This document shows, piece after piece, positions 4,595-26,375 of a DNA stretch of 34,172 bases (its first letter is position 1; each line of letters opens with the position of its first letter). Source of the stretch: a bacterium BMS3Abin04. GTDB lineage: Bacteria; Bacteroidota; Ignavibacteria; Ignavibacteriales; Melioribacteraceae. The stretch spans positions 1 to 34,172 of the forward strand of contig BDSW01000104.1 of NCBI GenBank assembly GCA_002898175.1. The letters run 5' to 3'. A program made the translations under genes and the position numbers. The notes beneath the pieces were generated by a model that was given only the letters and a program-made list of their open reading frames with translations, was not told where the DNA came from and did not search any database.

Positions 4595-5719
4595 TTATTT
4601 TGAATTATCAAAAAACTCTATAACTTCATTTTCAATTCGCTTAAGATCAATTTGTTCAATACATTCCAAGTTGTAAGGACAAACTTTTTTCCAGCAAGGT
4701 GCACATTCAAGATTTTCCGGGAATAGTTTTACACCTCTATCGTATAAATCAATTTCCTGCCAGCAGCTTAATCCGAACCACGCGATTACATATTTTTGCA
4801 ATGCAATAGCCAAGTGCATTCCAAAAGAATCGCCGGTGATAATTACTTGCGGAATACTTTCGAAACAAGCACCTTTTCGAACTCCTAAATTTGTGGGAGT
4901 GTTTATAACTTTGTCCTCAAATTCTTTGTAAATAGCTGCATTTCTTTCGGTATCTTCAGGTCCGCCCAGCAGCATAATTTTAAAACGGTCATACTTTAAA
5001 AAATTTTTAATTAGAAAAATGTGCTGATCAATTGTCATTTTTTTATTCGGATACAAATTTGAACAGCCTGTATTAAACCCTATTATCTCATCATGTGATG
5101 AAATTCCGTTTTCTTTTTTATAATGTTCAATATAACGGATTTCCTCTTCGGAAAAATTAAAAACATAGTCGTTTCTTTCATAAGGAATTTCAAAAGTTTC
5201 TGCTAGATAATCCTGTCCTACTTGCTTATTTAACTTAAATTTAAGATGGTCGTCCATTCCAAGTAAATAGTTGTATTCGGCTCCTTTATTAAGAGGAATA
5301 ATCTGACCGTTAGCATTTATGCCGAAGCCGAGTTGTTTTTTTGCATTAACGCTCATTGCCAATGCTCCGGAGCGCATTGACTTATCAACATTCATTACAA
5401 AATCAAAACTCAATTGATTTAGAATAGAAATAGACTCAGCGTTATAAACAAATACCTTATCTATGTAAGGGTTATTATCTAAAAGGGGAGCGGCAATTTT
5501 TAAAGTAACCCAATAAATAGTGGACTCAGGGTATTGCTTTTTTAAAGTAGGAAGTTGAGCGGTGGTCATTAAAACATCGCCCATAGCATCTAAGTTGATA
5601 ATTAGAATTTTGCTTCCGAACGGAAGCGGATCTTTACAGCCGTCGGTCAGGCAATTATGACCCGGGAAGCATGGCTTGTACCCGGTAAATCTTTTACAAT
5701 CGAGGATTTCGTTTTTCAT
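4595..5719 (-). CDS. Family 9 glycosyltransferase with two Cys4 motifs
   Basis: A 374-residue member of the GT9/heptosyltransferase (ADP-heptose:LPS) superfamily with a GT-B fold. The N-terminal Rossmann motif reads ILIINLDAMGDVLMTT (about 38-53), and the sugar-nucleotide half has IIGFNTGCSN, MLLGGPED and TGDSFGMHLAIAL. Two Cys clusters frame it: C8, C17, C23 and C28 before the first Rossmann strand, and CAPC-x4-C-x5-C near the C-terminus. These look like zinc knuckles. It probably adds a sugar to a cell-envelope glycan at the inner face of the inner membrane. It is the last gene of the operon, starting 26 bp inside the upstream glycosyltransferase. The donor cannot be told from the sequence, so heptosyltransferase would be an over-call. 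Confidence 0.88.
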   Translation of the reverse strand: MKNEILDCKRFTGYKPCFPGHNCLTDGCKDPLPFGSKILIINLDAMGDVLMTTAQLPTLKKQYPESTIYWVTLKIAAPLLDNNPYIDKVFVYNAESISILNQLSFDFVMNVDKSMRSGALAMSVNAKKQLGFGINANGQIIPLNKGAEYNYLLGMDDHLKFKLNKQVGQDYLAETFEIPYERNDYVFNFSEEEIRYIEHYKKENGISSHDEIIGFNTGCSNLYPNKKMTIDQHIFLIKNFLKYDRFKIMLLGGPEDTERNAAIYKEFEDKVINTPTNLGVRKGACFESIPQVIITGDSFGMHLAIALQKYVIAWFGLSCWQEIDLYDRGVKLFPENLECAPCWKKVCPYNLECIEQIDLKRIENEVIEFFDNSK

Positions 5720-6776
5720 ATAAGTTTTCTTCTAAAAATGGTATAAAATCTTTAACTACTTTATTATAACTTAAATTTTCTAAAGTCGGTTCTTCCGTTA
5801 TTATTGCCTTAAATTTTGATTTATAAGGCGTCCAAATCATATCTTTAGTATTATAATGAACATACAACCCGAATACCGGTACTTTAAAAGCTGAAGCAAG
5901 ATGAACTGCAGAAGTATCCGGTGTAAAAAGCATATCCAATTTTGAAATCATCGCCGCTAATTCATCGAAACTATGGTCATTAAAAATAATAAATTTCCCA
6001 TTGGTAATCTTTTCCGCAAGATTTTCATCTTTAGGCGACCGGAGCACGACAATATCTAAATTCTTATAATTTGATAACACGTTTAATAATTTCCGAAACC
6101 GCTCAATTCCCCAAAATCTTGCTTCGCTGCCGGCGGAAATATTTATTCCTAAAAGATAATGTTTAGTTGGGAAATTATCTTTGATAAAATTATCTGCAAT
6201 TTCTATTGATTCCGAAGCCGGTTTGTAAATAATATTTATATTGTCATACTTAATTTTAATCCCGAATAATTCCGAAATTTTAACTACTCTTTCTACAATA
6301 TGAACTTTTGACGAATCCGGTTTTTCTATTGTATCTGTGTATACCGTTCTGTTTTTTTTATCTAAAGCAAATTTACGGGGAGCATGACTTAACGCCGTTA
6401 AAAATGTAACTGTTGTTGATACATCATCATGCGTATCAACAATTACGTCAAAGTTCATTTTATTTATCCACTTTAACGTATTTAGAAATCCCGGTAATCC
6501 CTTACGGAATGTTACAACTTTATTACGTTCAATTATTGAGTGAAATATAAATTTGTTTTTCTTATCTGAAAGAATATAAATATCAGGATTAAGCCGATTT
6601 TTCACTTCGGAAATTAGGGGAGTGGTTATAAGTGCATCACCAATCCTGTTTAACCGGATAAATAGGATTTTGGTTTTGCCGTCAAATTTAGGTAAGGATT
6701 GATTTTTTCTATTTGAGTGTAATAATAGAATAATTCTAAGCAATATTTTCCTGAGAAAAAGTTCAATATTTTTCAT
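5694..6776 (-). CDS. Family 9 glycosyltransferase (second of three)
   Basis: This 360-residue GT9 protein has a basic, hydrophobic N-terminal stretch (about 1-25, LFLRKILLRIILLLHS) that could sit on the membrane. It is followed by the Rossmann motif ILFIRLNRIGDALITTPL. The acceptor-half landmarks GINISAGSEARFWG and FTPDTSAVHLASAFKVPVFGLY are typical of heptosyltransferase-like enzymes. Unlike its two neighbours it has no Cys4 cluster at either end. It overlaps the next glycosyltransferase gene by 26 bp and the previous one by 4 bp (ATGA), so the three are co-translated. The role is inferred to be successive sugar additions to one envelope glycan. Substrate unknown. Confidence 0.88.
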   Translation of the reverse strand: MKNIELFLRKILLRIILLLHSNRKNQSLPKFDGKTKILFIRLNRIGDALITTPLISEVKNRLNPDIYILSDKKNKFIFHSIIERNKVVTFRKGLPGFLNTLKWINKMNFDVIVDTHDDVSTTVTFLTALSHAPRKFALDKKNRTVYTDTIEKPDSSKVHIVERVVKISELFGIKIKYDNINIIYKPASESIEIADNFIKDNFPTKHYLLGINISAGSEARFWGIERFRKLLNVLSNYKNLDIVVLRSPKDENLAEKITNGKFIIFNDHSFDELAAMISKLDMLFTPDTSAVHLASAFKVPVFGLYVHYNTKDMIWTPYKSKFKAIITEEPTLENLSYNKVVKDFIPFLEENLYEKRNPRL

Positions 6777-7807
6777 GAAATAATAATATGATTTTTCTCG
6801 ATAAGAATCTGCACTTTCTTAATTACATCATTAACGGGTAATTCTGTAAAGCATTCATGGTTTTTAGGGCATTCCAATAAATTACAGCCGATGCAGTCCA
6901 ATTCTTCCAAACGTATCCATTCATGCATATCTCCAAGCGGGCCTTGAAGTTTTGGGTCTGTTGGTCCGTGTAAACTAAGAACGGGAATATTTAGGGCTGC
7001 TGCAATATGCATAGGACCGCTGTCGTTTGCAATTACAAAAGCACATTTTGAAATCAATGCTCCCATTTCTCTAAGGGTAGTTTTAGGAGCAAGGAATGAT
7101 TCATGTTTCATAAAGGCTTTAATTTTCTCAGCGTCATCTAAATCACCCGGTCCCCACAAAATCATTATTTCAGCACCGAATTTCTCAGCAATTTCATCAC
7201 CGATTTCGGAAAATTTGTTAGGTTCACAGCGTTTTGAGCTCCATCCGCCCGATGGAATTAGTCCAACTACTAAGCTATTCTTTAGACTAATTGTATTAAC
7301 ATATTTATCTGCAAAGAGATAAGCGAATTTATCTAAATTAAAATATAGGTTCTGTGTAGAAATTTTCAGTCCGATTCTGTTTAATACCTCAAGATGAAGC
7401 AATCCGGCATGAAATTTTCCTCTTTCGGATGGACCGAAAAGGTTATATGCATACTTTCTACCGCGATACGGGAAGCCTGCACGGTAACGTGCTCCGCTTA
7501 AAAACGTTAATTGTGCCGTGGCTGGATTGGAAAATAAATCCAATACCAAATTATATTTATTTGCTCGTATTTTGGGAAATAATTTTAATCTTTCAATAGT
7601 GCTTTTCCGGTTAAACTCAATAACTTCACTAATTTGCGGAAGACCCTTTATAACCGGGAAACTTGCTTTTTCAGTTAAAAAATCAATCTTTGCGCCTGGG
7701 AAATTAGCTTTTAGACTATCTAAAACAATAGTGGATAAAACTACATCTCCGATTCCTCTTAATTTTATTACAAGTATTTTTTTAACGGAATCTTTATCAA
7801 TTATCAT
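6773..7807 (-). CDS. Family 9 glycosyltransferase (first of three)
   Basis: This 344-residue GT9 enzyme starts directly with the Rossmann strand ILVIKLRGIGDVVLST (about 11-26). Its C-terminal half carries VGLIPSGGWSSKRC, MILWGPGD and the conserved ANDSGPMHIAAALNIPVLSLHGPTDP. It ends in CIGC-x4-C-x5-C, the same C-x2-C-x4-C-x5-C spacing as the third glycosyltransferase of the operon. It overlaps the DoxX/MauE-like gene by 4 bp (ATGA) upstream and the second glycosyltransferase by 4 bp downstream. Of the three it looks most like classical heptosyltransferases (RfaF/WaaF type), but the donor sugar is not proven. Confidence 0.9.
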   Translation of the reverse strand: MIIDKDSVKKILVIKLRGIGDVVLSTIVLDSLKANFPGAKIDFLTEKASFPVIKGLPQISEVIEFNRKSTIERLKLFPKIRANKYNLVLDLFSNPATAQLTFLSGARYRAGFPYRGRKYAYNLFGPSERGKFHAGLLHLEVLNRIGLKISTQNLYFNLDKFAYLFADKYVNTISLKNSLVVGLIPSGGWSSKRCEPNKFSEIGDEIAEKFGAEIMILWGPGDLDDAEKIKAFMKHESFLAPKTTLREMGALISKCAFVIANDSGPMHIAAALNIPVLSLHGPTDPKLQGPLGDMHEWIRLEELDCIGCNLLECPKNHECFTELPVNDVIKKVQILIEKNHIIIS

Positions 7808-10983: not shown

Positions 10984-12954
10984 TCAAAAATGGTGTGTAT
11001 AAGAGAGGGAAGTTATAAATTCGCTGAAACTACTACTCGAAAAAGCTGATCCGTTAGAGTTTAAATAGGAAATAGTTAATACAAAATCTTCCGATTTAGT
11101 TGGACTGTATTTTGTATTTACTGATGATCTGATTGCCGAATGGGCTTCTAAAATAGAAGCTGAAAGGTTTAGTCCTGCGCTGATATGGTTTTGCGGAGAT
11201 CTGTAATTAAAAGATAGCGCATAATTTTGTGTATTTGTAGATATTGTATCAAGCATTTCGGAGTGGATTAATCCTCCGTTCAGAGCGGCGTTAATTTTTG
11301 ATGATAAAATGAAATTTAGTCCCAAATTAATGGTACTTATAGAATTGTTATTGTTTTTAATAAGTAAAGAATTATTTACTGATGACTGATTAGTATAGTT
11401 AAAAGTTATTGTTCTGAGGAATGATTTTTGGCCTATAATAAAGTTCTGTGAAGTACCAATTACAGTGTTGCCGAAATCTATTCTACTAGTATCATTATTT
11501 GAATCATTTCCCATGTTCAAAATGTTTGTAAAAATTCCTAAAGTCCAGAACTTAGTAACAGCACCATTAATTGAAGCTGTATAAATATTGCGGGAAGTTG
11601 TAAATAGTTTTTGTTTTAAAAGGTTATCCGTTTGGTTTATATAACTGAGTGAAACGGAAAATTTTTGTACCCTGAAACCAGTCATAATAGATAGTTCACT
11701 TTTATCATTTTGAAGATAACCAAGTCCAAGTGAATTATAACCCGGTCCAATTCGCTTATAACCAATTTGGGCATTAAAGGAAGTAAAGTTCAATTTCAAG
11801 TGCGAGATAACCGCATAATCGAAGTTTGAACTTGTCCTCGGCAAAAATATATTTGTGGCAATCGAGGGCACTGATATGGAATCTAAGTTTAATGCTTTTG
11901 CTCTTAAATCCCTTGTATACGCACTTACACCGCCTTCAAATGTTAGTGTTAACTTGTTCTTATAGAAATTGATTCTGCCTTTTGTTCCTACAACTAAATT
12001 TTCTTGCGGGGTAACGGCATTAGGATTTATCAATTTATTTTTAGAATAGTTCCCGGTTTTCGGTTCTGCTCCCGTACCGATCGTAAATGTAAAATCACTA
12101 ATATCTTTTATGGTTGAATCGGCATTGCTGGTAATTCTCAATAATGCTTGGAAAGTTGCCGGCCCGTTTACCGTCCAATTATAAAAACCGATATTCGGGG
12201 CATTTGTTTCAATTGTTTCAAATGTTTTACCGTTGTCTCTAGACAATTCAATTTTCAAATCTCCGCCTAAACTTGACGTTGACCACCTTATAGTATAAAG
12301 ATTACCAATGATAAGAACATCATTCCCGTTGGGATTAAAAAGCGTAATTGATTTTATTCCCTGTTCTAATGAATTTATATCATCTTTAGCTTTAAGAAAT
12401 ATCAAATCGAAAAAAGAATTGTTCTCTTTTCCAATACCTAATTTAGCAGCAAATAAGAACCGTTTGAAACTGCCGTCTTGCGCTCCACCAGGTACACTTC
12501 GCTGTGTAAATCCTGCTGCGGCAGATAATCTAAAAATTCCGGGTGTTAGATTTACCCCGCCGCCGCGTATTTTAATTCCATTCAAAATTAGCTGTGAGTA
12601 GTCTTCATTAAAATCCCCGATATGTGCCGAACCCCAGCCCCATTTGGGGTTCAATCCGAATTGATTGATACTCTGTCTGGCAGAAGAACCTTCCGTAGAT
12701 ATAAGAAAATCGAAAGGAATTTGAAGTAACCCAAACAAATTTAAAACCGGTCTGAAGAATATTCTACCTGTTGATGACGGCCTTCTTTTTTCCTGTCCGG
12801 AAATACTATATAATTCACCATAAGCACCTAACTCTCCTGATATAGTTACCCCTGAATGAGAACTATCATTTTTAGATACATTTATTTGCGCTTGCAACGG
12901 TATAGCCAAAGCAAGAAATACTATAAGTAAAAAGAAAATAAAATATTTTCTCAT
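10984..12954 (-). CDS. Probable outer-membrane beta-barrel protein with inserted Ig-like module
   Basis: This 656-residue secreted protein is not of a family I can name. A signal peptide (residues 1-22, ending LQAQ) precedes a long run of amphipathic beta-strands with many aromatic girdle residues, ending in Phe (LSYTHHF), as expected for outer-membrane barrels. A soluble module at about 200-292 interrupts it. With FNPNGNDVLIIGNLYTIRW, ELSRDNGKTFE, NWTVNG and LLRITSNAD it resembles the Ig-like Ser/Thr-rich GPI-anchored (Kre9-type) repeat. A TTG at 12966 would add four residues; I chose the ATG at 12954, directly before a normal signal sequence. It is the last gene of the three-gene cluster, 8 bp after the FN3 gene. 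It may be the membrane anchor or pore for its two partners. PorP/SprF is an alternative, but I see no clear signature. Confidence 0.75.
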   Translation of the reverse strand: MRKYFIFFLLIVFLALAIPLQAQINVSKNDSSHSGVTISGELGAYGELYSISGQEKRRPSSTGRIFFRPVLNLFGLLQIPFDFLISTEGSSARQSINQFGLNPKWGWGSAHIGDFNEDYSQLILNGIKIRGGGVNLTPGIFRLSAAAGFTQRSVPGGAQDGSFKRFLFAAKLGIGKENNSFFDLIFLKAKDDINSLEQGIKSITLFNPNGNDVLIIGNLYTIRWSTSSLGGDLKIELSRDNGKTFETIETNAPNIGFYNWTVNGPATFQALLRITSNADSTIKDISDFTFTIGTGAEPKTGNYSKNKLINPNAVTPQENLVVGTKGRINFYKNKLTLTFEGGVSAYTRDLRAKALNLDSISVPSIATNIFLPRTSSNFDYAVISHLKLNFTSFNAQIGYKRIGPGYNSLGLGYLQNDKSELSIMTGFRVQKFSVSLSYINQTDNLLKQKLFTTSRNIYTASINGAVTKFWTLGIFTNILNMGNDSNNDTSRIDFGNTVIGTSQNFIIGQKSFLRTITFNYTNQSSVNNSLLIKNNNNSISTINLGLNFILSSKINAALNGGLIHSEMLDTISTNTQNYALSFNYRSPQNHISAGLNLSASILEAHSAIRSSVNTKYSPTKSEDFVLTISYLNSNGSAFSSSSFSEFITSLSYTHHF

Positions 12955-12962
12955 TTTTAATC

Positions 12963-14984
12963 TCAAAATTTTATTGAAACCGGTTGACTGAAACTGCTTT
13001 CTATGCCGTGTTTGTTTACAGATGTAACAAAATAAAAATATATCTTGTTTTTACTTAAATGCTTGTCTGTAATAAAAAGCTTCTTAACGGATTTTACGGA
13101 AATAATATATTTAGATTTTTTACCCAATTGTTGACGGTAAATTTTATATTCAACAATGTTGTCTTTGTAAATTCTATCCCATATAAGCTTTACACCGCCT
13201 GGTAACGGAAGTAATCTCAATCCTCCAGGGGGTGATGGTTTTGGGAAAGGAAAATCTATTAAGTATGAATTACTGACATCACTTTGTCCGCCGAACATAT
13301 CAAGGGCAACAACTGCATATTCGTAATAGCTACCTTGCTCGATTGTTGTATCTTTATATTCATTGTGATTATATGAAAGAATTGAGTCGGTAATGGATTT
13401 ATAATCTGAGATAGCTTTCATGTTTTTATCTAATTCCCGCCTCAGCACAAGGTAGCCCAAAACCGAATTATCATTTTGATGAACATCATCCCACGAAATG
13501 TTGGTGATATTATTTTCAATGTATCCTGTTAAACCGGTAGCAGCAGGCGGCTTAGTCGGTATTAATGGTCTGACGGAAACGGTATCGGAAAAATCACTTG
13601 AAACGTGACTTGTGCTGAATGATTTGACCGCATAATAATAAGTTAATTTACCCGATAGTTCTTTACTCGAATCCACGAATGAGTTTACCGGTTTTTGTTC
13701 GGTAAGAAGATCCGAGATGAGCTTAAGCGAATCTCTGTAACCGGTACTTCTGTAAACTCTGAATCCTTCAATATACTCCTCAGAATTTTCCCATGTAAGT
13801 TTAACACCGTTCCGAAGTCCTTCTGCCGTAATATTTACAGACGGTATAGGCTTCTCTTTAGACATATATATTGCAGGAACTCTTGCCGATTTCATTGAAG
13901 TCTCTCCTAATGTTCCGGTTATTTGAAAGTAATAGTAGTAGGTTTCCATGGGCTTTACCATTAAATCGAGATAATCGGTTTTTATCGGGGATACTTCCGA
14001 AAGCTGCACATAGTTTGAATCATAATTATCACTTTTATATATTTTTACACTAACAACAAGACCCGGCTGAGGCAGAATCCATGAAAGTAATATTCCCCCG
14101 AGCGAGTCGGAACTAACTGCCGTTATGTTAAAAGGAATTGCAACGGTATTAAAATTGTAAGTACCTGTAAAAATTGTATCGGAAGCCACACCTTTATTAC
14201 CATATAAATTTTCGGGTACAATAAAGTAATTGTAAAAATTATACGGTAACACAGTGGTGTCCCGAACTATCAGCGAAGTCGTGTTATTATTGCTGTTAAA
14301 TCCTTTAATTGTATTTACAATATTATAATCACCTTTTCCATTATCCCGCCGTAAAACTTGAAAGTTCGAAGGTTTATTACCGCTGTTTATTTTCCACACT
14401 ATAAAGACCTGCTTTTTATCGGAAGGATGGTTGGATTTTATTAATCTTCCAAATTTCACACTACCCGGGAATTTAGTAGGATTTGTTACAATAGTAAACG
14501 GTTTCGAACCAAAGTCACTGCCTGAAATCTTATATCGATATTCTTCATTCATTATAGCAGTCGAATCAAAGAACATCAAACCCAGGGCAATTTTAACTAT
14601 AGGAAATGCACCCCAAAAAGCTACAGAATCGATAGTACCGGTTTTTCTCAATTTTTCCCAGATGTAATTTATTCCCCGTTCACCGGGAATAGGAAAGTCT
14701 TTTAATATGTTTTTATCTTTTTGAAGATTTTTAACGAACTCATCTTTGCTTGTAACCGTAGATATTTCAGCTATTTTTGATTCTTTACCCGGTTTATCAA
14801 TTCTTATTATCCGGAAATTAGATTTGAGGGCAGAAGAAGAAATATTAATGCGGTTAGAGAAGTTTATGAATATTCCGTTGTTACCCGGAATTGAATATAC
14901 AGAATTTACACTTTGTGCAAAAGTAAAACCTGATAAAACTAAAAGAAACAAAAAATAAACAAACGCAAAAAATGTTTTTCTCAT
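12963..14984 (-). CDS. Secreted protein with about five fibronectin type III domains
   Basis: A 673-residue secreted protein with a signal peptide (1-23, ending FTFAQ). A non-repeated N-terminal region (about 24-190) contains GRLIKSNHPSDKKQVFIVWK. About five FN3-type modules follow at roughly 195-270, 285-368, 376-472, 474-575 and 577-673. They show the usual strand pattern, such as GVKLTWENSEEYIEGFRVYRS and GGVKLIWDRIYKDNIVEYKIYR. There is no T9SS sorting domain; the protein ends on the last FN3 strand. AGGAG lies 9 nt before the ATG and partly overlaps the stop region of the giant gene, a sign of translational coupling. It probably works in a surface or periplasmic complex with the giant protein and the barrel. 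Function unknown. Confidence 0.85.
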   Translation of the reverse strand: MRKTFFAFVYFLFLLVLSGFTFAQSVNSVYSIPGNNGIFINFSNRINISSSALKSNFRIIRIDKPGKESKIAEISTVTSKDEFVKNLQKDKNILKDFPIPGERGINYIWEKLRKTGTIDSVAFWGAFPIVKIALGLMFFDSTAIMNEEYRYKISGSDFGSKPFTIVTNPTKFPGSVKFGRLIKSNHPSDKKQVFIVWKINSGNKPSNFQVLRRDNGKGDYNIVNTIKGFNSNNNTTSLIVRDTTVLPYNFYNYFIVPENLYGNKGVASDTIFTGTYNFNTVAIPFNITAVSSDSLGGILLSWILPQPGLVVSVKIYKSDNYDSNYVQLSEVSPIKTDYLDLMVKPMETYYYYFQITGTLGETSMKSARVPAIYMSKEKPIPSVNITAEGLRNGVKLTWENSEEYIEGFRVYRSTGYRDSLKLISDLLTEQKPVNSFVDSSKELSGKLTYYYAVKSFSTSHVSSDFSDTVSVRPLIPTKPPAATGLTGYIENNITNISWDDVHQNDNSVLGYLVLRRELDKNMKAISDYKSITDSILSYNHNEYKDTTIEQGSYYEYAVVALDMFGGQSDVSNSYLIDFPFPKPSPPGGLRLLPLPGGVKLIWDRIYKDNIVEYKIYRQQLGKKSKYIISVKSVKKLFITDKHLSKNKIYFYFVTSVNKHGIESSFSQPVSIKF

Positions 14985-14996
14985 TTTATTAACTCC

Positions 14997-17900
14997 TTAA
15001 TTTCCGCTGCAAGTACCTTTTTGAAACTTGAGATTTGCATTGCCGTCACTGTCTATATGAAATTTGGCTGAAAAAGCAAAAGTATGACCGATATCTAAGA
15101 GTACCGGAGAACAAAATGGGGGAGTCGACTGAATGATATGACCGGCTATGCTAAGGCTTGCACAGCCGTTAAGATTGAATGTACGCGAACCGGTCTGATA
15201 ATTACCTTCCATGCCTGCTTCTAAAGTAGCATCAGCGGAAAGGGTAGTACAAGTTATAGCACTCATCGTAAGATAAGCATGTATAAATGCGATTGCACCG
15301 ATTCCATAGGTACTGCCTCCTTCTTCATCAAAACCTTTGTATATTCTCACATCACCTCCCGCATCTACTCCAAACTCTAAAGCAACTATTCCAAGATTTA
15401 TATCTATGTTCGGAATAATTACAGGAATTGCAATTTTACCTGAGAATAAGAACCCGCTTATATTATGTTGAAATGAAGAAGGCAAATTTTTATTGTAAGA
15501 AGCAGCGGCAAATATTGTTCTAACCGGTTGCGGCATGGAAGGGTAATCCCCGAAGATCATTGCTGCGTTACCGGCAGGAATTCCCGGAACCTTCATTTTT
15601 GCTGTGCCCAGAAAGTACCACCCTATATTATCAATCAGTATCTCTGCAGTGCCGTTTATTTTCACTCCTCCAAATTTCTTATCAATATTGAACGTACCGA
15701 TTAAACGGCTATTTTTAAATTGATACATCCATTTCATTTTACCGAACGGTGTTGGAACGTTTTTAACACTTATTTGCTGATTGTCTGCAAGTATCTTTCC
15801 GTAAACAGTAAAAGATAATCTTTTATGTTTATCGGTAATTCCCTTTGTCCCGGTCAGATCGCCTTCGAAATGGAAATTGTTCCATTTATTATTGCTTACG
15901 ATCATTCCCCCGGTTAGGTTGCTTAAATAAGTGCTGTTCGCCGAACCGATTATCATTTTTTGATATGTATTTCTTGTTGTAAACGGTGTCGTAGGTGTTT
16001 CAACAAGAATTGAAGTGGAATCGACTGTGTGATATAACCAACTGACTTTTTCGAATTTTCCATCTTCACCAATTACGCCTAGCGAGCGGAAACCCGACTC
16101 ATCTAAAACTTGTGAATTTTGCTGTTCCGGGGTCGCCCCGAATTTTATGTATACTCCGTTGCCGGCATTAGCGCTTAAGTTAATTCCTCTTAACTTAAAT
16201 GCAATTTTACCATCCTTACCTTTGTAATAATCGAAAGCAGTGCTTTGTGTGGCATTCGGTATATTGAAACCGAGTCCCTGAACATAAAGGTAATCATTGT
16301 AAGCTAATAGCGGATTTGAAGCATTAAGATTCAGTATTCCAACTTTATAAATTTTAAGCGTCTGGTTTTCGGGTGTGAGTGAGAAAAAACTTTCTTTACT
16401 GTTTAATACGAAACTCGATATTTTCAAAAGATCGTTGTTTGCCATACCCGGAAGTCCCTTTGCATACGCTGCGTAAGGGTCGTTTAAATTTTTCTTTGAA
16501 ACCGATAAATACCAGTAATCATTTGCATCATCATGATTAAAGTAGAACTTTCCCGTAATAGTAAAAGGAACAATTTTAGACACGGCAATCGATGATAAAT
16601 TAAAATCGCCGAAAGCGAGCGAAGTAGGTGTTACATCAAGCGATTTAACCGGAATATTCAATCCTGAATTAAGTGTCCCTTTCGTAATTCTAATATTGCC
16701 TTTGTAGAAATTCCATTCGGATGCATCCAAAGTCCAATTATCAAGTTTAAATGAAAATTCTTTTTTGCCAATTACCGGCTCAATTGATTTCTGATGAAAT
16801 GTTACATCTCCTATTGCTAATTTTAAATCCGAAGGGTTTGCGTGTGCAATGTTTGTATGAAGCGTGGTTCTAAGCCGGACGGTATCCTGATTAAAAAATG
16901 AGTTATGCGGATCAGTCTCTGCATTAAAATTATTTATTTTTAATGTTAATCCATCGCCGCTGCTGTTTGTTACATTAAAACCGTCTGGAATATTAAGAGG
17001 CGCGGAGCCATCAGCTGTAATTGCAGGAACTAACATTTTCTCCGTATTGTTTTGCACATTAGGGTTAGCGAGATAAAGTCCGTTGTAGTTGCTCAAGCTT
17101 CCTTTGGTATCGAATGACGAAGCCCGTACAAAAAGTTTTCCTTTCAGTAAACCCACATCGTTACCCGGATTAATTAATTGAATGCCATTCTGCGTATCTC
17201 CAAAATCGGCATTGAATTTACTGAACATATTCAGCGATAAAGATGGATTGCTAAATATTAATGGCGGTGATGCAAGGGCTGCATAAGGCACACCCTTACT
17301 GTTTTTTTTGTTTCCCGGTTTGATAAGAACATTTTTAAAACTCAGCTTGCTGTTTTGAGACTCAGATAAATCGAATATGTTGTTCTTTTTAAATTTATTA
17401 ATTAAACCTGTTATTCTAACCTGACCGTTTCCTTCTTCTGTTAAGTTTGTGAGCAGAACAGGAAAGCCGAACAGTTGGGTAATATCCATTCCATTATAAA
17501 TTGTTAAATAAAGATTAACCCCGGTTTTACCGGTTTCTGCCGTATTAACTGCAGCACTGTCGCCAATTATTGTTTCTGTATTGGAATGTTTGGATGCATA
17601 AACTATTATATCTTGTCCGATAGGCACATTGGGTAGGATATATTTGCCATTCTCATTGGTCTTTACAAAAATGTTCAAATCGGGGTTGCCGAAATCTATC
17701 CACACATCGGCATTTTCAACTGGCTGATTGCCTGCAACGAAAACAGAGCCGCTAATGTAAGTTGCTTTATCAAGCGCAATAACATAAGTGACGTCGTATT
17801 TTGAAGGTTTGTTCTGAACCATTCCGGCTTTTTTAACATAATATTTGCCTGCCGGACCTTCAACTATTACTTTGAAGTTTTTTGAATCATTGCTGAATTT

Positions 17901-20891
17901 AAATGATGCTTCCCCGTATTGATCGGTCGTTTTTTCTGAATAGCCGCCCAGTATAGTTATTTTAATTTTTGCGCCCGGTAATGGAGGCCACTGATAAATA
18001 GGTAGAAAAGGATGTTCTAATGTAGGAGTCCATGGCTGTGCTTCTTTAACAATAAATTTCAACCTATGCTTTTTCTCATAAACAATTATATTACCGAGAT
18101 TCTGATTCGGTTGGGTGATATCCACATAAGTCGTGTCGATGATATACTGAGAAGCATTGTAAAGCGGTGTAACAACTAGCGATTGGTGTTTCAGTCTTGC
18201 AGCCGGAAATTCAAAATGCGCCGGAGCTATAACTAACTTGTGATTTTTGCTATCATAGTAGTAGCCGGTGGGAGAAACTGTTTTCTGCGGTGCATCTCCT
18301 ATTTTTATCCGTGCCGAAATTCCGTTTCCGTATTCATCTACAATATTACCTGAAACAATTGAACCGGGATTAAGAGCAAGCAGTTGATTTGATTTGCGCT
18401 CTCCCAAAGAAAGAGCGTTATTCTGAGCGCTGCCATCAACATCAAGAACCTTTTTATCGAACCCGTCGGCATAACCCCAAAGCTGTCTTACAGGCCCGTT
18501 AATTACGTAAGGATTAATGCTATATTCGACGTGAAGTCCGCCGAAATAAAATTTCCCTGTTGCATCGGTAAAAATTGCTTTTTCAATTGTATCAAATTCA
18601 TATAACTTACCAAAAAACTGCTTTTTATTAACTTTTAATAGTAATACGGAAGCACCCTTTATTTTGGTACCCGGTTCATCGCTTCTAACAACCGACCCGG
18701 AAATTTCGGGAAGTAATGGAAAGGCGTAAAAATCTTTGTGCACTATCGGTTGGATATATTGTGAATTATATATAGCATTATCCTGATAGAGATAAATTCC
18801 ATCTGTATCTTTAGAATAATAAGTGTTCCCGGATTTGTCAGGGCCCCCATAGTGATATCCATCGTCGCGATGCCAATCGCTGAAATAGAAATTTTGTCCA
18901 AACAAAATATAGTTGTGAGGCGCATTTTTACTGCTTCTTGCGTAAAGATAGTAATTATCACCTTGTGCAATGTTTAAAATTAATCTTGTAAAAATTATCT
19001 TCCCCTTATGGGGTTCACCTTCGGTTGTTCCCATTGCAACCACTTCATAGCCGGGAAAAGGACTTGCAACAGATGGCTTTGGGCTCCCTTCCGTATTAGG
19101 CAGTCCATAGGGTCTTTTTTTCCTTAATAAATAAACATCCATCTGGTCTAACGGCTGTAAAGTAAATTGCTGCTCTATTACTTTCATTGGTTTTATTGTT
19201 ACTTCGAATGCGTAACTTCTAATAAGACTTGTAACTGAACCGATGTTTTTTGTTTCGTATGGCTGTATCATTATGTCATCATCGGGGCTTGTAAAATATT
19301 CATCTTCTACAATTACTCTTGCCACTCGATATATATCTCCCGTGTAATCATATCCGAATTCAGCTGAAGTACCAATGTGATAATTCGCTTTAATATGTCC
19401 CATACTATCGGGATTGATAAAATTAAAGCTAAAGTTTCCGTTTGCGTCGGTTGTAGTAACTGCAAGTGTCTGATTATTATCTGAAGGATGACCGGGAATA
19501 TCGGAATCTTTTAATAACAATTCGCCCTTTGGTGCTTCTGTTGATCCATAATTACCAGTTCCGCTATTGCTGGTATATTTCATAATATATTTGATAACTA
19601 ATTTTACAGTCCGGTTAGCTAATGACCAGCTTTCGGTGTCGTACTTATAAGCATATTTATAACGGAGCTGCCCGCTTAAAAAACTCCAGGCAGGCAATGT
19701 AAGCACGGGATTTATTACAATGCCTTTAGAGTATGTAAGCTTCCACACATTACTCGATTTTAAGATTGTATTATCAGTTGTATTTATTACATCAACTCTC
19801 CAGACATATCCGGCATTCTGAGAAAAATTTAGATATACCGGAGGCGTAAACGAAGTTTGATTTGAACCGAGGAAAGTTGAATATAAAGGTGGATTATTAA
19901 TCGCATCTGCATTAGATTGACCACTATTCATTTTACAAATCTTTATTTCAAACTTATAGTTTTTACCCTGTGCGGGAGTGTAACTCCATTTAAACGTTGG
20001 CTTATTCGAAGCAACCTGGCTATTGTTTGCCGGTGATTGAAGTAAAGGATTATTAATTATAAATATCGGAAATATTATAAACTTCTTCTTAGTAAAAGTA
20101 AATATTTCACTCTTTCCCTGGTTTTGCGCAGGTGGTATTCCGAACTGATCTAATGCTTGTGTTTGCCATGCGTAAGTTTTTCCATTCTCTAATTTCAGAG
20201 CATCAATTGGATATGTAAAGCTTGTGATATTAATTTGATTATTGATATACTGCGGATAGTTTGCACTGAGTGCCTGGGCAGGTGTTTGTCCTTGGAGAAC
20301 TTCAACAATTTTAAGTGTATAGGTTAATTGATAATCGGGTTGAACGATTACAGGTGTCCATTGAAACGTCGGATATTCATTATCGGCATTAAGCGAATCA
20401 CCATTCAATGGATAAATGAGATGCGGTGGTTCAGGATAAACTATAGTGAAATCGGCACAAACATTACTTACAAGAACTTGATTATCACTATTTCTAATAA
20501 CAAAACAAACCGTATAAGTACCTTCCGGTAAACGCCCTGTCCTAATTACTTTATCTTTCAAATCCTGTTGTGGAAATTGGGAATTTGACGAGTTAAAAAA
20601 CAGTGTGCTGTTTATTAAAGTAGATGGGGCGGAAGATATTGGAATTGTTGTTGTAATACTTGTCGCTACAACACCGTAATTATGATGAGTAACCGTAGAA
20701 GTAATTATTATATCTGTAATTTCATTTGTATTATTAAATAACGTTAATGAACCAAGAGACGAGGGGTTTGTTTCCCAATCGCTTATATAAGGGGAGGGAT
20801 AAGGAATAACATTCAGTATAGCATTCCAATTCTGTGCAGATACTATAGATGCAAAATAAATAAGCAACAAAAAAATTTTCGTTTTATTCAT
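14997..20891 (-). CDS. Giant secreted TANFOR/carboxypeptidase-regulatory-like protein
   Basis: A 1964-residue secreted protein, the largest in the window. After the signal peptide (1-19, ending VSAQ) come Ig-like domains. The one at about 170-265 (FQWTPV, LKIVEVLQGQTPAQAL, KTYAWQTQALDQFG, GKSEIFTF) fits the TANFOR domain described from Tannerella forsythia; a second at about 298-390 has the FKWSY and YVWRV pattern. Several carboxypeptidase-regulatory-like beta sandwiches follow near 480, 730, 846 and 1048 (SGSVFVAGNQPVENADVWI, NENGKYILPNVP). The last 830 residues are beta-rich and unfamiliar. They include glycine-rich strands (about 1750-1900) and four late cysteines, and end KGTCSGN without a T9SS sorting domain. 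It heads the three-gene operon, 12 bp before the FN3 gene. A structural surface or matrix role is inferred; no catalytic motif is seen. Confidence 0.8.
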   Translation of the reverse strand: MNKTKIFLLLIYFASIVSAQNWNAILNVIPYPSPYISDWETNPSSLGSLTLFNNTNEITDIIITSTVTHHNYGVVATSITTTIPISSAPSTLINSTLFFNSSNSQFPQQDLKDKVIRTGRLPEGTYTVCFVIRNSDNQVLVSNVCADFTIVYPEPPHLIYPLNGDSLNADNEYPTFQWTPVIVQPDYQLTYTLKIVEVLQGQTPAQALSANYPQYINNQINITSFTYPIDALKLENGKTYAWQTQALDQFGIPPAQNQGKSEIFTFTKKKFIIFPIFIINNPLLQSPANNSQVASNKPTFKWSYTPAQGKNYKFEIKICKMNSGQSNADAINNPPLYSTFLGSNQTSFTPPVYLNFSQNAGYVWRVDVINTTDNTILKSSNVWKLTYSKGIVINPVLTLPAWSFLSGQLRYKYAYKYDTESWSLANRTVKLVIKYIMKYTSNSGTGNYGSTEAPKGELLLKDSDIPGHPSDNNQTLAVTTTDANGNFSFNFINPDSMGHIKANYHIGTSAEFGYDYTGDIYRVARVIVEDEYFTSPDDDIMIQPYETKNIGSVTSLIRSYAFEVTIKPMKVIEQQFTLQPLDQMDVYLLRKKRPYGLPNTEGSPKPSVASPFPGYEVVAMGTTEGEPHKGKIIFTRLILNIAQGDNYYLYARSSKNAPHNYILFGQNFYFSDWHRDDGYHYGGPDKSGNTYYSKDTDGIYLYQDNAIYNSQYIQPIVHKDFYAFPLLPEISGSVVRSDEPGTKIKGASVLLLKVNKKQFFGKLYEFDTIEKAIFTDATGKFYFGGLHVEYSINPYVINGPVRQLWGYADGFDKKVLDVDGSAQNNALSLGERKSNQLLALNPGSIVSGNIVDEYGNGISARIKIGDAPQKTVSPTGYYYDSKNHKLVIAPAHFEFPAARLKHQSLVVTPLYNASQYIIDTTYVDITQPNQNLGNIIVYEKKHRLKFIVKEAQPWTPTLEHPFLPIYQWPPLPGAKIKITILGGYSEKTTDQYGEASFKFSNDSKNFKVIVEGPAGKYYVKKAGMVQNKPSKYDVTYVIALDKATYISGSVFVAGNQPVENADVWIDFGNPDLNIFVKTNENGKYILPNVPIGQDIIVYASKHSNTETIIGDSAAVNTAETGKTGVNLYLTIYNGMDITQLFGFPVLLTNLTEEGNGQVRITGLINKFKKNNIFDLSESQNSKLSFKNVLIKPGNKKNSKGVPYAALASPPLIFSNPSLSLNMFSKFNADFGDTQNGIQLINPGNDVGLLKGKLFVRASSFDTKGSLSNYNGLYLANPNVQNNTEKMLVPAITADGSAPLNIPDGFNVTNSSGDGLTLKINNFNAETDPHNSFFNQDTVRLRTTLHTNIAHANPSDLKLAIGDVTFHQKSIEPVIGKKEFSFKLDNWTLDASEWNFYKGNIRITKGTLNSGLNIPVKSLDVTPTSLAFGDFNLSSIAVSKIVPFTITGKFYFNHDDANDYWYLSVSKKNLNDPYAAYAKGLPGMANNDLLKISSFVLNSKESFFSLTPENQTLKIYKVGILNLNASNPLLAYNDYLYVQGLGFNIPNATQSTAFDYYKGKDGKIAFKLRGINLSANAGNGVYIKFGATPEQQNSQVLDESGFRSLGVIGEDGKFEKVSWLYHTVDSTSILVETPTTPFTTRNTYQKMIIGSANSTYLSNLTGGMIVSNNKWNNFHFEGDLTGTKGITDKHKRLSFTVYGKILADNQQISVKNVPTPFGKMKWMYQFKNSRLIGTFNIDKKFGGVKINGTAEILIDNIGWYFLGTAKMKVPGIPAGNAAMIFGDYPSMPQPVRTIFAAASYNKNLPSSFQHNISGFLFSGKIAIPVIIPNIDINLGIVALEFGVDAGGDVRIYKGFDEEGGSTYGIGAIAFIHAYLTMSAITCTTLSADATLEAGMEGNYQTGSRTFNLNGCASLSIAGHIIQSTPPFCSPVLLDIGHTFAFSAKFHIDSDGNANLKFQKGTCSGN

Positions 20892-20937: not shown

Positions 20938-20968
20938 CAAACTTAGACCCTGGTTTTTTGGCCGACAA
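20938..20968 (-). promoter_or_regulatory. Candidate promoter of the giant-protein operon
   Basis: On the minus strand TTG (20968-20966) is followed after 20 nt by TAAGTTTG (20945-20938), about 47 nt before the start codon of the giant gene. This fits the Bacteroidota TTG/TAnnTTTG pattern. It suggests that the three-gene operon is transcribed separately from the LamG-like gene that ends just upstream at 21037. Confidence 0.35.
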
Positions 20969-22706: not shown

Positions 22707-23345
22707 TTATATAATTTTATTCTTCAAAGCTTTGGCAACTGCTTCGGCTTTTGAGTTAACGTGGAGTTTGGAATAGATGTTTTTTATATGAGTCCGAACA
22801 GTATCTATACTGATAAAAAGGGTTTCGGATATTTTATTATATGTTGAACCTGTAACTAATTCATTTAATATTTCTTTTTCCCGTCTGCTTAAATCGTAAT
22901 TTATAATTCTCTTGTTACTTTCGTTAAAGTAATTAAGTACTTTTCTTGCAATACTTGGGGTCAACGGTGCACCACCTTCGTAAGCTTCTTTAATATGATT
23001 TAAAATATTCTCCAGAGGAGTTTGTTTAAGAATATAGCCGGAAGCGCCTGCTTTCAGTGAATCAAATACTTTTTTATCGTCGTCGAATACAGTAAGAATA
23101 ATAATTGTTAAATCGGCAAATAAACATTTTAATGTTTTTGTACATTCAATTCCGTTTATCTCGGGCATAGAGATGTCCATTAATATTATATCCGGTAAAT
23201 CAGAAGCAATTTTTTCAATTGCCTGAATACATGATGGATAGAACCCCGTACATTTAAATCCTTCCGATGAATTTAAATATGTCATTAAACCTGTACCAAT
23301 TGAGAGATCATCTTCAATTATGGCAACTTCAATAATATTTTTCAT
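22707..23345 (-). CDS. NarL/LuxR-type response regulator
   Basis: A 212-residue DNA-binding response regulator. The receiver domain (1-120) has the acidic pocket E11-D12-D13, the phospho-acceptor D57 in LMDISMPEINGIE, the Thr of IILTVFDDD and the Lys of GYILKQT. A LuxR-type helix-turn-helix (about 146-206) reads LSRREKEILNELVTG, then ISIDTVRTHIKNIYSKLHV. It is the evident partner of the histidine kinase gene 75 bp upstream and presumably activates or represses nearby secreted-protein genes. A TTG at 23360 would add five residues; I chose the ATG at 23345 because the receiver fold starts immediately after it (MKNIIEVAIIEDD). Palindromes of one design lie just before this gene and just after it. 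Confidence 0.93.
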   Translation of the reverse strand: MKNIIEVAIIEDDLSIGTGLMTYLNSSEGFKCTGFYPSCIQAIEKIASDLPDIILMDISMPEINGIECTKTLKCLFADLTIIILTVFDDDKKVFDSLKAGASGYILKQTPLENILNHIKEAYEGGAPLTPSIARKVLNYFNESNKRIINYDLSRREKEILNELVTGSTYNKISETLFISIDTVRTHIKNIYSKLHVNSKAEAVAKALKNKII

Positions 23346-23399
23346 AGTTGATTGAATCAATTACGGTATTAATTATAATAGTTCTAAAAAAAATAAGAA

Positions 23400-23423
23400 T
23401 CAATCACATAAATATGTGATTTA
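23400..23423. promoter_or_regulatory. Palindrome upstream of the response regulator gene (copy 2)
   Basis: AATCACATA (23402-23410), AA, TATGTGATT (23413-23421) forms a 9+2+9 inverted repeat. It abuts the histidine kinase stop codon and lies about 57 bp before the regulator ATG. It shares the TCAATCACAT...ATGTGA frame with the copy at 22658-22680. The similar distance to the next start codon in both cases favours an operator over a terminator. Confidence 0.45.
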
Positions 23424-26375
23424 CTTTACCGGTAATTGCAATAAAATTGACATTCCATTTCCGGGTGATGATTTAATTGTTATTTTACCGTTTATTTCTT
23501 CCGCTCTTCTGTACATATTATTTAAACCGTTTCCTTTTACTTTTTCATTCATATCAAAGCCCTTACCGTCGTCTGTCATTTTGAATATTAATAATTTTTT
23601 ATTTCTGTCGAACATTATTCTTATGTCGATATTATTAGCATTGGAATGTTTTGCCGCATTAGTTACTGCTTCTTTAAATATCAGTAAAAGATTCCTTCTT
23701 ACTCCGATTGTTAAATTTACCCCGGCAGTATTTTCGGGCATTATTATTTTCAGCTGGATATTTTCTGAATTTAAAAGTTGAACAGCATAGTTTTTAAATC
23801 TTTCCAAGGCATCTTCGAGTGTATCGTTTTCAGGGTTTATTGTCCAAACAATGTCGCTCAGTCTTTCAATTAATTCTCTCGATGTGTTTTCAATACCTTT
23901 TAATATTTCAGTAGACTTTACATGCCCGCTACCTAATTCCTTGCGTATTACTTCTGACAAAATAGCTATGCTCGATAAACTTGTACCTACATCATCATGC
24001 AGATCGGCAGAAATTTTTGTCCTAAATCTTTCAATCATTAATAAATGTTTCAGCTTGTTTCGGTAAATTAAAATTGATATGAAAGAAACAAACAAAGTGA
24101 AGAGTAAGATAGCTGAAGATATGAACCACCAAGTTTCCCAAAACGGCGGATGAATTACAAAGCTTATTTTAGCCGGCAATTTACTTTTCGTCCCTCTGCC
24201 GTCAATTGCATAAACAAGAAAGTTGTATCTGCCTGCGGGAAGGTTGTGGTAAAGCACATAATTACGTTTACCGGAGCTTGTCCAGTTTTTATCTACGCCT
24301 TCCATTTTGTATTTGAACGCAATCTTTTCTTCGTTCTCCAATGAAGAGCAGGCAAACTCGATAAGGAAGGAATTTTTTTCGTATGTGAAATCATAAATGT
24401 GATCTCCCTGCGGTTTTTTTATTTTAGAATTGATAAAAATATCACCGGGTGAAAAATTTTTTAGACGAAATTTAGTAACGCTTGTACCATCAATAAAATT
24501 GAACTTTTTTATATAAGCTTTTGGTAAATTATATGATAATGGATATTGCGGATTAAAAGTATAAATTCCATTGTTAGTTCCAAAATATAAGATACCGTTT
24601 TTATCCATTCCAGAAGATTGAATTTCACCGGCTTTCAATCCGTACGATTCATCGAAACGTGTCCAGATCTTTCCGTCAAATCTTGTAATTCCTTTTCCAG
24701 TACCAAACCAATAATTACCAATCCGGTCCTGTAAAATATTTTTTACCCAATTGCTGCTCAGCCCTTCATCAATTGTATACTGTCTCATTTTATCGTCTTT
24801 AAATTTGAAAGCGCCGCCGTATCTTGTACCAATCCAGATATTGCCATCGTCATCTTCGTACAAACATCGTATTTGCTCATCAAGCAGACCGTCGGCTCTT
24901 GTAAATTTTTTAATTCTTCCATTGTGAACCAAATATAATCCAGATGCAAAAGTACCAATCCAGATTCTTCCCTGCTTATCGTTAAGTAAACATGTAGGAT
25001 TAGTTCCACGCAATAACAATTTACTTTTTTCATCAATTAAATTTTTAATACGTCCTTTTACTATTTTAATTAAAGATGCATTGGAACTTAAAACAATTGC
25101 ATTCCCTTCCTTATCTTTGGAAACTTTAAATGAGTATTTGCTTAACAGCGGTGGAGTATCGTATGTAATAAATTTATCGTTTTGTTTTTGTATTAAACCG
25201 GATAAACCAATTATCCATAAATTCTTATTTATAAATTTTATCATCCAGGTTTTTTTCATTATTTGATTATCTATCGGTGCCGGAAACAGCTTATAATTAT
25301 TTAAAATGAATATCTTACTTTTTCCACCTGCCCACAAGATGCTGTCGGCAGACAAAGCAAAAGAATTAATAGTTGGTATATTCTCACTTCCTTTTATTAA
25401 CTGAAAGGAATCCTGTGAATACTTATATAATCCATAAATGGTTCCGATCCAATGGTTATTTTCATTATCTATTAAAAAGGAAGTAATATAATCTTCACTG
25501 AGACCGTTTGATCTGTCAATAACGGAAAATTTATTATTCTCAAATTTCCACAACCCTTTTGAGGAAGAAATCCAAATAGACTTGTTGTGAGCAAATATAG
25601 GGGCATAAGTTAATTTTGGCAGATTAAATTCTTTAAAAAGATTTTTAACTTTACCATTTTGAAAAACCGACAAATAATTTACGGCGCCAATGAAAACTTT
25701 ACCATCATCCGAGCAAAGAATTTGTTTGTAGAAATCATCTTTATTAGAAAGGTAAGAATTTTTGAAAAGTATAAATTTTTCACCGTTCCATTTAATCAAT
25801 CCTTTTTCGGTACCGAACCACAAAAGTTTTTTTTTATAATCGACACTGCCGGTTACCGAAGTTCCGGGGAAGCCCTCCGATTCACCGAAATGATTAACAG
25901 AAAATTTGCCGGAATTAAAACTCCATCTTGTAGTCCCGGAATCAGTACAAAACCAAAAATTATTATCCCAATCTTTTAATATATTATTGACCCTGTCATT
26001 AATCAGAAATTTCTTTCCTCTGAACGATGCAATAAGCGTATCTTTATCAAATGCCGGATGATAAAAAATCATTAACCCGCCATCGTTACCGCCGATCATC
26101 ATCAATGAGTCATTCAAAGGATAGAAACAGTTAATTACTGTGTATGTTAATCCGGAGTTGTAACCGTAATTGGTCATTTCCTTGCCGTCATAAACGCTTA
26201 TCCCTTCAGCAGTTCCAATCCAGAGTCTCCCGAGACTGTCGCGAGTTAATGCTCTGATTGTATTTTGAATTAACCCTGTTTCCGTATCATATTTTTTGAA
26301 ATAAATTTGCTGCGATTCTGATCTGACCGATACAAAAAGAATAATAACAATTATTTTTAATATTAATCCTTTCAT
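23421..26375 (-). CDS. Two-component regulator-propeller sensor histidine kinase
   Basis: A 984-residue membrane sensor kinase. The signal sequence (1-21) leads into a periplasmic double propeller made of Reg_prop repeats, recognised by recurring LWIGT/IWIGT/YWFGT motifs (LWIGTAEGISVYDG, IWIGTRYGGAFKF, YWFGTGKGITRFDG). A Y_Y_Y domain follows (about 655-745; FKYKMEGVDKNWTSSG, PAGRYNFLVYAID). One transmembrane helix lies at about 752-771. The HisKA_3 domain has LHDDVGTSLS with the phosphorylated H793, and the ATPase domain has EAVTNAAKHSNA (N box) and DDGKGFD, NGLNNMYRRA and SPGNGMSI (G boxes). There is no receiver or AraC domain, so it is not a hybrid HTCS; it signals to the LuxR-type regulator encoded just downstream. 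In Bacteroidota such propellers often sense glycans. The ligand here is unknown. Confidence 0.93.
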   Translation of the reverse strand: MKGLILKIIVIILFVSVRSESQQIYFKKYDTETGLIQNTIRALTRDSLGRLWIGTAEGISVYDGKEMTNYGYNSGLTYTVINCFYPLNDSLMMIGGNDGGLMIFYHPAFDKDTLIASFRGKKFLINDRVNNILKDWDNNFWFCTDSGTTRWSFNSGKFSVNHFGESEGFPGTSVTGSVDYKKKLLWFGTEKGLIKWNGEKFILFKNSYLSNKDDFYKQILCSDDGKVFIGAVNYLSVFQNGKVKNLFKEFNLPKLTYAPIFAHNKSIWISSSKGLWKFENNKFSVIDRSNGLSEDYITSFLIDNENNHWIGTIYGLYKYSQDSFQLIKGSENIPTINSFALSADSILWAGGKSKIFILNNYKLFPAPIDNQIMKKTWMIKFINKNLWIIGLSGLIQKQNDKFITYDTPPLLSKYSFKVSKDKEGNAIVLSSNASLIKIVKGRIKNLIDEKSKLLLRGTNPTCLLNDKQGRIWIGTFASGLYLVHNGRIKKFTRADGLLDEQIRCLYEDDDGNIWIGTRYGGAFKFKDDKMRQYTIDEGLSSNWVKNILQDRIGNYWFGTGKGITRFDGKIWTRFDESYGLKAGEIQSSGMDKNGILYFGTNNGIYTFNPQYPLSYNLPKAYIKKFNFIDGTSVTKFRLKNFSPGDIFINSKIKKPQGDHIYDFTYEKNSFLIEFACSSLENEEKIAFKYKMEGVDKNWTSSGKRNYVLYHNLPAGRYNFLVYAIDGRGTKSKLPAKISFVIHPPFWETWWFISSAILLFTLFVSFISILIYRNKLKHLLMIERFRTKISADLHDDVGTSLSSIAILSEVIRKELGSGHVKSTEILKGIENTSRELIERLSDIVWTINPENDTLEDALERFKNYAVQLLNSENIQLKIIMPENTAGVNLTIGVRRNLLLIFKEAVTNAAKHSNANNIDIRIMFDRNKKLLIFKMTDDGKGFDMNEKVKGNGLNNMYRRAEEINGKITIKSSPGNGMSILLQLPVK

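Follow-up and report, generated by a model that had tools for sequence, protein, structure and literature searches.

A TANFOR-type giant protein, an FN3-like partner and a predicted outer-membrane barrel that may form a recurrent surface module

The gene cluster and its products

The window considered here, i.e., the whole stretch of 34,172 nucleotides analysed from the Melioribacteraceae bacterium BMS3Abin04 (contig BDSW01000104.1, assembly GCA_002898175.1), carries three adjacent minus-strand genes for secreted proteins: a giant protein of 1964 residues (14997..20891), an FN3-like partner of 673 residues (12963..14984) and a putative outer-membrane barrel of 660 residues when read from a TTG start (10984..12966; alternative ATG at 12954). 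Relatives of the three recur together, the head of the giant being kept with the barrel and its body varying by lineage, and the strongest new point of this analysis is that TANFOR-type heads are paired across the phylum with a large barrel that has no name. The open reading frames and their coordinates agree with the initial annotation, which described three tightly packed genes with a 1964-residue giant and gaps of 8–12 bp: the giant and the FN3-like gene are 12 bp apart, and the FN3-like gene is followed by the barrel gene after 8 bp (ATG at 12954) or with a 4-bp overlap (TTG start). Signal peptides had been proposed for all three proteins and are borne out by reading the sequences, with predicted Sec signal-peptide ends at ..VSA/QNW, ..TFA/QSV and ..LQA/QIN (slash, cleavage site). 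In each case a glutamine directly follows the cleavage site, a pattern reported for Bacteroidetes (PMC5837995).

The GC content of the cluster is 36%, compared to 33% in the rest of the window, which is not strong evidence of transfer. The 145-nt gap before the ATG of the giant was searched with the Bacteroidota promoter consensus, and holds a candidate promoter of this type, TTG-N20-TAAGTTTG (20938..20968, minus strand), ending 46 nt before the start codon; an equal match occurred in 0.5% of shuffled gaps. The own promoter suggested by the initial annotation is plausible in view of this match, although a sigma-70 promoter scan, like a terminator scan, gave results at chance level at the cluster.

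Three regions can be distinguished in the giant. The N-terminal TANFOR-type head (residues 21-270; 20082..20831, minus strand) comprises a stretch matching TIGR02542 (residues 78-146) and an FN3-like second half, and is supported by an alignment and by its co-location and co-variation with the barrel (see below). The TIGR02542 match, which bears on the TANFOR part of the earlier TANFOR/carboxypeptidase-regulatory-like description, is weak (E 5e-4; 20 bits against a curated cut-off of 67). Relatives of the head score up to 51.7 bits, and the cut-off may be strict, since no match in the 395 genomes searched in the phylum passed it. The other part of that description is clear: a carboxypeptidase regulatory-like domain (PF13620; residues 1046-1098; 17598..17756, minus strand) scores 46.2 bits against a cut-off of 32.3. 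The third region is a beta-rich C-terminal part (residues 1150-1964; 15000..17444, minus strand), whose 815 residues are kept in the alignment of the full-length relatives (G048, G029, G042, G010, L111, L113, L114 and L117). The structural model of this region is poor (predicted local distance difference test, pLDDT, 59.6; predicted TM-score, pTM, 0.39), and its fold matches to LptD and ApoB were discarded for their low TM-scores. Pfam and NCBIfam detect no toxin family in the 400 C-terminal residues of the giant encoded in the window, families outside these libraries being possible. Among the C-termini of 31 giants, Col-Pyo_DNase and LHH (both nucleases) and Lcl were each found once, suggesting that what is borne by one and the same pairing of head and barrel differs by lineage: toxins in some, and structural bodies, or bodies of other kinds, in others, including the window. 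In one relative with a 4050-residue giant frame, an in-frame TAG interrupts the head (G031:C46:90820-91608, L010); the gene is broken, or the sequence contains an error at this point.

The FN3-like protein, which recurs beside giant and barrel, matched no Pfam or NCBIfam family above a curated cut-off. Its label comes from resemblance and from weak similarities (PHROG central tail fiber J), and the earlier multi-FN3 designation was not confirmed at any curated cut-off.

The last protein had been proposed to be a barrel, and structure prediction supports this: an AlphaFold2 model built on 20 sequences (pLDDT 79, pTM 0.61) shows a large barrel with about 25 predicted strands, laid out as eight strands, an Ig-like insert, about 17 further strands and a final, C-terminal F. 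The insert (residues 206-306; 12049..12351, minus strand) is a Kre9_KNH-like module placed between strands 8 and 9 and found only in window-type barrels; the same module occurs abundantly in further large proteins that these genomes encode. The best fold match in the PDB is MtrB of the Mtr complex (6r2q_B; Z 21.1, root-mean-square deviation 4.6 Å, 441 residues aligned), followed by rows at Z 18 and by FimD usher and SprA chains at Z 17. No sequence relation to MtrB was found, with no match of the barrel or its family members to the Pfam family MtrB_PioB, and no cytochrome gene was found in the cluster or among the other window genes scanned. No Pfam or NCBIfam family reached its curated cut-off in the barrel, and when 20 family members were scanned singly no barrel family gave a credible score: none of the 20 matched PorP_SprF (E up to 1), FadL/PorV was not matched, and no TpsB or POTRA family of Pfam was found in the barrel or its 19 relatives. 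PDB sequence searches with the giant, the barrel and the barrel profile likewise gave no useful relatives, the profile matching no PDB chain. As far as Pfam and NCBIfam go, the barrel thus appears to belong to an unnamed family.

Recurrence and linkage of the three families

Relatives were taken from 58 near genomes and from 22 named loci (Kryptonium, Ignavibacteria, Melioribacter, Zixibacteria, Calditrichota and one Gemmatimonadetes record). An alignment of the barrel worked as query where the single giant sequence failed, a scan of the genome contigs with the latter having found nothing. Searches with a single barrel sequence are swamped by unrelated proteins that match its Ig-like insert; the counts below were therefore made with profile searches, in which the insert drops out. 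Giant, FN3-like protein and barrel were adjacent in relatives from both the near genomes and the named loci. All three partners were present at 49 of 75 distinct mapped barrel loci (giants cut by contig ends counted), with a head or full-length giant relative at 50 and an FN3-like partner at 54. At 11 of the 75 the head is fused to the barrel in one chain, and fusion proteins of about 900 residues were observed at L193:5721-8456, L194:7010-9721 and L195:7303-9894. The three families are therefore found together elsewhere, across the phylum and beyond it.

These 75 loci were partly selected for holding a head or a barrel, and a fairer test is provided by two separate profile searches, one for the head and one for the barrel, across the same 395 genomes of the phylum. 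Among the matches listed, 105 of 129 strong heads lay at most 16 kb from a barrel, sharing its strand in every case (105/105) and within 2 kb of it in 73 cases, while random placement gives at most seven linked heads. The two families also co-occur by genome: a head is encoded in each of the 90 genomes that have a strong barrel, and a barrel was found in 123 of 132 head genomes (Fisher p 4e-63, or 5e-46 among the SprA-positive genomes alone; see below). The curated model TIGR02542, used by itself, agrees with this: it matched in 13 genomes, ten of which, counted by eye, have a match no more than about 12 kb from a barrel. A coincidental clustering of ordinary surface genes might be proposed, as these genomes encode many secreted proteins of Ig-like and FN3-like type, but it is contradicted by the linkage across the 395 genomes, by the shared strand among the matches listed, and by the co-occurrence and co-variation of the two families; we consider it very improbable.

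The order of the genes is not constant. Giant-FN3-barrel, barrel-giant-FN3 and giant-barrel-FN3 arrangements were all seen, and in one genome (G042/L117) a single barrel gene lies between two giant-FN3 pairs, arguing against the inheritance of one gene order. At L174, L175, L176 and L177, which belong to a single family of the phylum, several genes separate the heads from the barrel. Four genomes (G286, G396, G254 and G316) contain several unlinked head genes and a barrel at another place, which looks as though a number of head proteins were served by one barrel in trans.

The end of the giant that pairs with the barrel

The initial annotation had singled out the C-terminal 300 residues of the giant for co-folding with the barrel. 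Some relatives speak for the opposite end, since they keep the barrel and the N-terminal domain and replace the rest. Identity to the window proteins at G046, L110 and L112 amounts to 47-53% for the barrel and 43-51% for the head, and BLASTP finds no match in the rest of the giant. Pairwise distances across 36 loci give the same picture, the barrel correlating strongly with the head (r 0.87, partial 0.83) and much less with the last 350 residues of the giant (r 0.47, partial 0.14). Because barrel and head are maintained while the remainder is exchanged, the docking end is probably the N-terminus, judging from these sequence comparisons. Head and barrel look like a constant pair, and the body together with the FN3-like protein like the variable part.

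Export route and relation to known systems

A large surface protein encoded beside its cognate outer-membrane barrel is known from SprB/SprF and the other pairs of a type B substrate and a PorP/SprF shuttle in the type IX secretion system (T9SS), and secretion and anchoring of a type B substrate by a cognate SprF-like barrel have been shown experimentally (PMC12618676, PMC9143113). The module of the window resembles these pairs in this respect, and also in that orphan substrates of SprF systems can share an orphan barrel. It differs from them in the recognition element, which is probably N-terminal in the window module and a C-terminal domain (CTD) in the SprF type, in the barrel, which falls in no PorP/SprF family and is predicted to be far larger, and in the giants, which lack CTDs. 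As the initial annotation had stated, T9SS sorting domains (TIGR04183, TIGR04131, CHU_C) are absent from the giant, the FN3-like protein and the barrel according to Pfam and NCBIfam, and one is present in the neighbouring LamG protein (PF18962, 44 bits; TIGR04183).

Under one version of the model favoured below, the giant would be a T9SS cargo with a specialised shuttle, crossing the outer membrane through SprA, with the barrel only collecting and anchoring it, in the manner of PorV or SprF with CTD substrates. The distribution of SprA is in line with this: it is present in the genome of the cluster itself and, within the phylum, in all 150 genomes with a barrel and all 132 with a head, whereas neither head nor barrel occurs in the 91 SprA-negative genomes. 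The genomes that contain the Zixibacteria, Calditrichota and Kryptonium loci also have SprA. A cognate barrel beside its giant substrate and orphan substrates with a common orphan shuttle are, in addition, the known SprF pattern, and T9SS-substrate genes are reported to be enriched near TANFOR genes (PMC7073777). Most of the SprA-negative genomes listed, however, belong to one family, so that the correlation may reflect ancestry. Moreover, none of the 31 giants carries a type A or type B sorting domain in its last 400 residues, and the barrel, predicted to be much larger than the known shuttles, matches none of their families (PorP/SprF, FadL/PorV). In the phylum of the Gemmatimonadetes record, where the barrel was found in 4 of 111 genomes, SprA was not detected in two of the four (assemblies may be incomplete), compared to its presence in 31 of 40 other genomes checked; at two barrel loci of this phylum an FN3-like partner and a large open frame adjoin the barrel. 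Taken together, we regard a T9SS-dependent passage as a tentative possibility, short of an even chance.

Two-partner secretion offers another comparison. In CdiB/CdiA a barrel gene is paired with a giant gene, and the giant has a conserved N-terminal region and a variable body; the same arrangement is seen here, with toxin tips in some relatives. TpsB barrels have 16 strands. The genetic pattern fits a route in which the barrel itself is the translocon, sequence-unrelated to TpsB, with the head as export signal and the body threading through the barrel as CdiA does through CdiB. The constant N-terminal domain beside the signal peptide, the variable bodies, some of them with Col-Pyo_DNase or LHH ends, the usher-like size of the barrel and the barrel-positive genomes without detected SprA are consistent with this second version of the favoured model. 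Conversely, the window barrel has no POTRA or other TpsB family and about 25 predicted strands, its partner head is unrelated to CdiA by the libraries used, no energy source or gating was seen, and SprA always accompanies the barrel in the phylum of the window, which makes this route rather unlikely.

TANFOR proteins themselves have been described as polymorphic toxins (Jana, Salomon and Bosis 2020, PMC7073777). The parts of that paper covered here report SprB, Fn3, PKD and sorting domains as enriched nearby and propose export by the T9SS, and do not mention a barrel partner; a neighbourhood screen based on domains could not see this barrel, as no library models it. Large Sec-exported proteins with an N-terminal TANFOR, nearby Fn3 genes and a T9SS in the genome, as described in these parts, are shared with the window. 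The window head, by contrast, falls below the TANFOR cut-off, the giant shows no toxin domain, and no immunity gene was seen downstream of it, the next genes encoding the FN3-like protein and the barrel.

A second recurrent operon was observed at L213:8593-14977, L212:5699-12635 and L211:1228-8102, encoding a head-like protein of 350-410 residues, a FecR of about 245 residues, a barrel paralogue of 800-918 residues that is extended at its N-terminus, and a CHASE2 or CHASE2-cyclase protein. The operon has the appearance of a sensor that spans from the outer to the inner membrane and uses the same pair of head and barrel. An assignment of the weak barrel matches of about 800 residues to LptD was dropped, as they match no LptD family and are sited with FecR and CHASE2. 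The recurrence of this grouping in several genomes raises the question of whether the head-barrel pair is mainly a sensor or regulatory gate, with the giant as its ligand-binding surface part. The window cluster, however, contains no FecR or CHASE2 gene, and a two-component pair, a LuxR-type response regulator adjoining a Reg_prop/Y_Y_Y histidine kinase (22707-26375), lies upstream of the cluster with two genes in between, and no conservation of it beside the module was seen. A primarily sensory role is improbable in our view, and the two-component pair is a possible regulator of the nearby surface genes. Elsewhere in the window, three successive genes of glycosyltransferase family 9 (heptosyltransferase-type) were found at 4595-7807.

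A model for TANFOR-headed giants and its implications

We consider it probable that a dedicated barrel holds, and possibly exports, TANFOR-headed giants at the cell surface. According to this model the cluster would be one copy of a widespread surface module, whose constant pair consists of a large outer-membrane barrel and a TANFOR-type head of about 250 residues following the signal peptide of the giant. The signal peptides suggest that Sec takes all three proteins to the periplasm, where the head would dock on its cognate barrel; the barrel would then hold the giant at the outer membrane with the body outside. The body may cross via the barrel itself, or via the T9SS translocon before being handed over to the barrel. 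The outer-membrane assembly put forward by the initial annotation is in keeping with the predicted barrel and with the co-occurrence of the families, although the docking end it favoured is probably wrong. By analogy, the best reading is that the module works like SprF-SprB or CdiB-CdiA, and since the defining sequence features of both systems are absent it is filed under neither.

Several points weigh against this model. The barrel prediction (pTM 0.61) includes some low-confidence stretches, and because barrel folds resemble one another the match to MtrB tells of size and fold, not of function. Among the matches listed, 24 of the 129 strong heads are unpaired, and some genomes contain unlinked heads and lone barrels; in addition, no barrel was detected in 9 of the 132 head genomes. 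Finally, species phylogeny is a confounder of the head-barrel co-variation, and the C-terminal parts, where they evolve faster, would correlate less with the barrel for that reason.

A more far-reaching proposal would be a separate outer-membrane secretion route of Bacteroidota and relatives, in which the unnamed barrel recognises the TANFOR-type head and moves or displays giants, antibacterial toxins included. No T9SS signal at the C-terminus would be needed and, in some genomes, no T9SS at all; this proposal seems doubtful at present. At the level of the pairing itself, the constant barrel partner gives a testable answer to how TANFOR-headed proteins, some of them antibacterial toxins, reach the surface or stay on it, and makes testable an exit route that has so far been guessed to be the T9SS. 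Confirmation would name a family of outer-membrane barrels with strong matches in 90 of the 395 genomes that were sampled from the phylum. It would also show that a giant protein can be paired with a barrel via an N-terminal recognition domain outside two-partner secretion.
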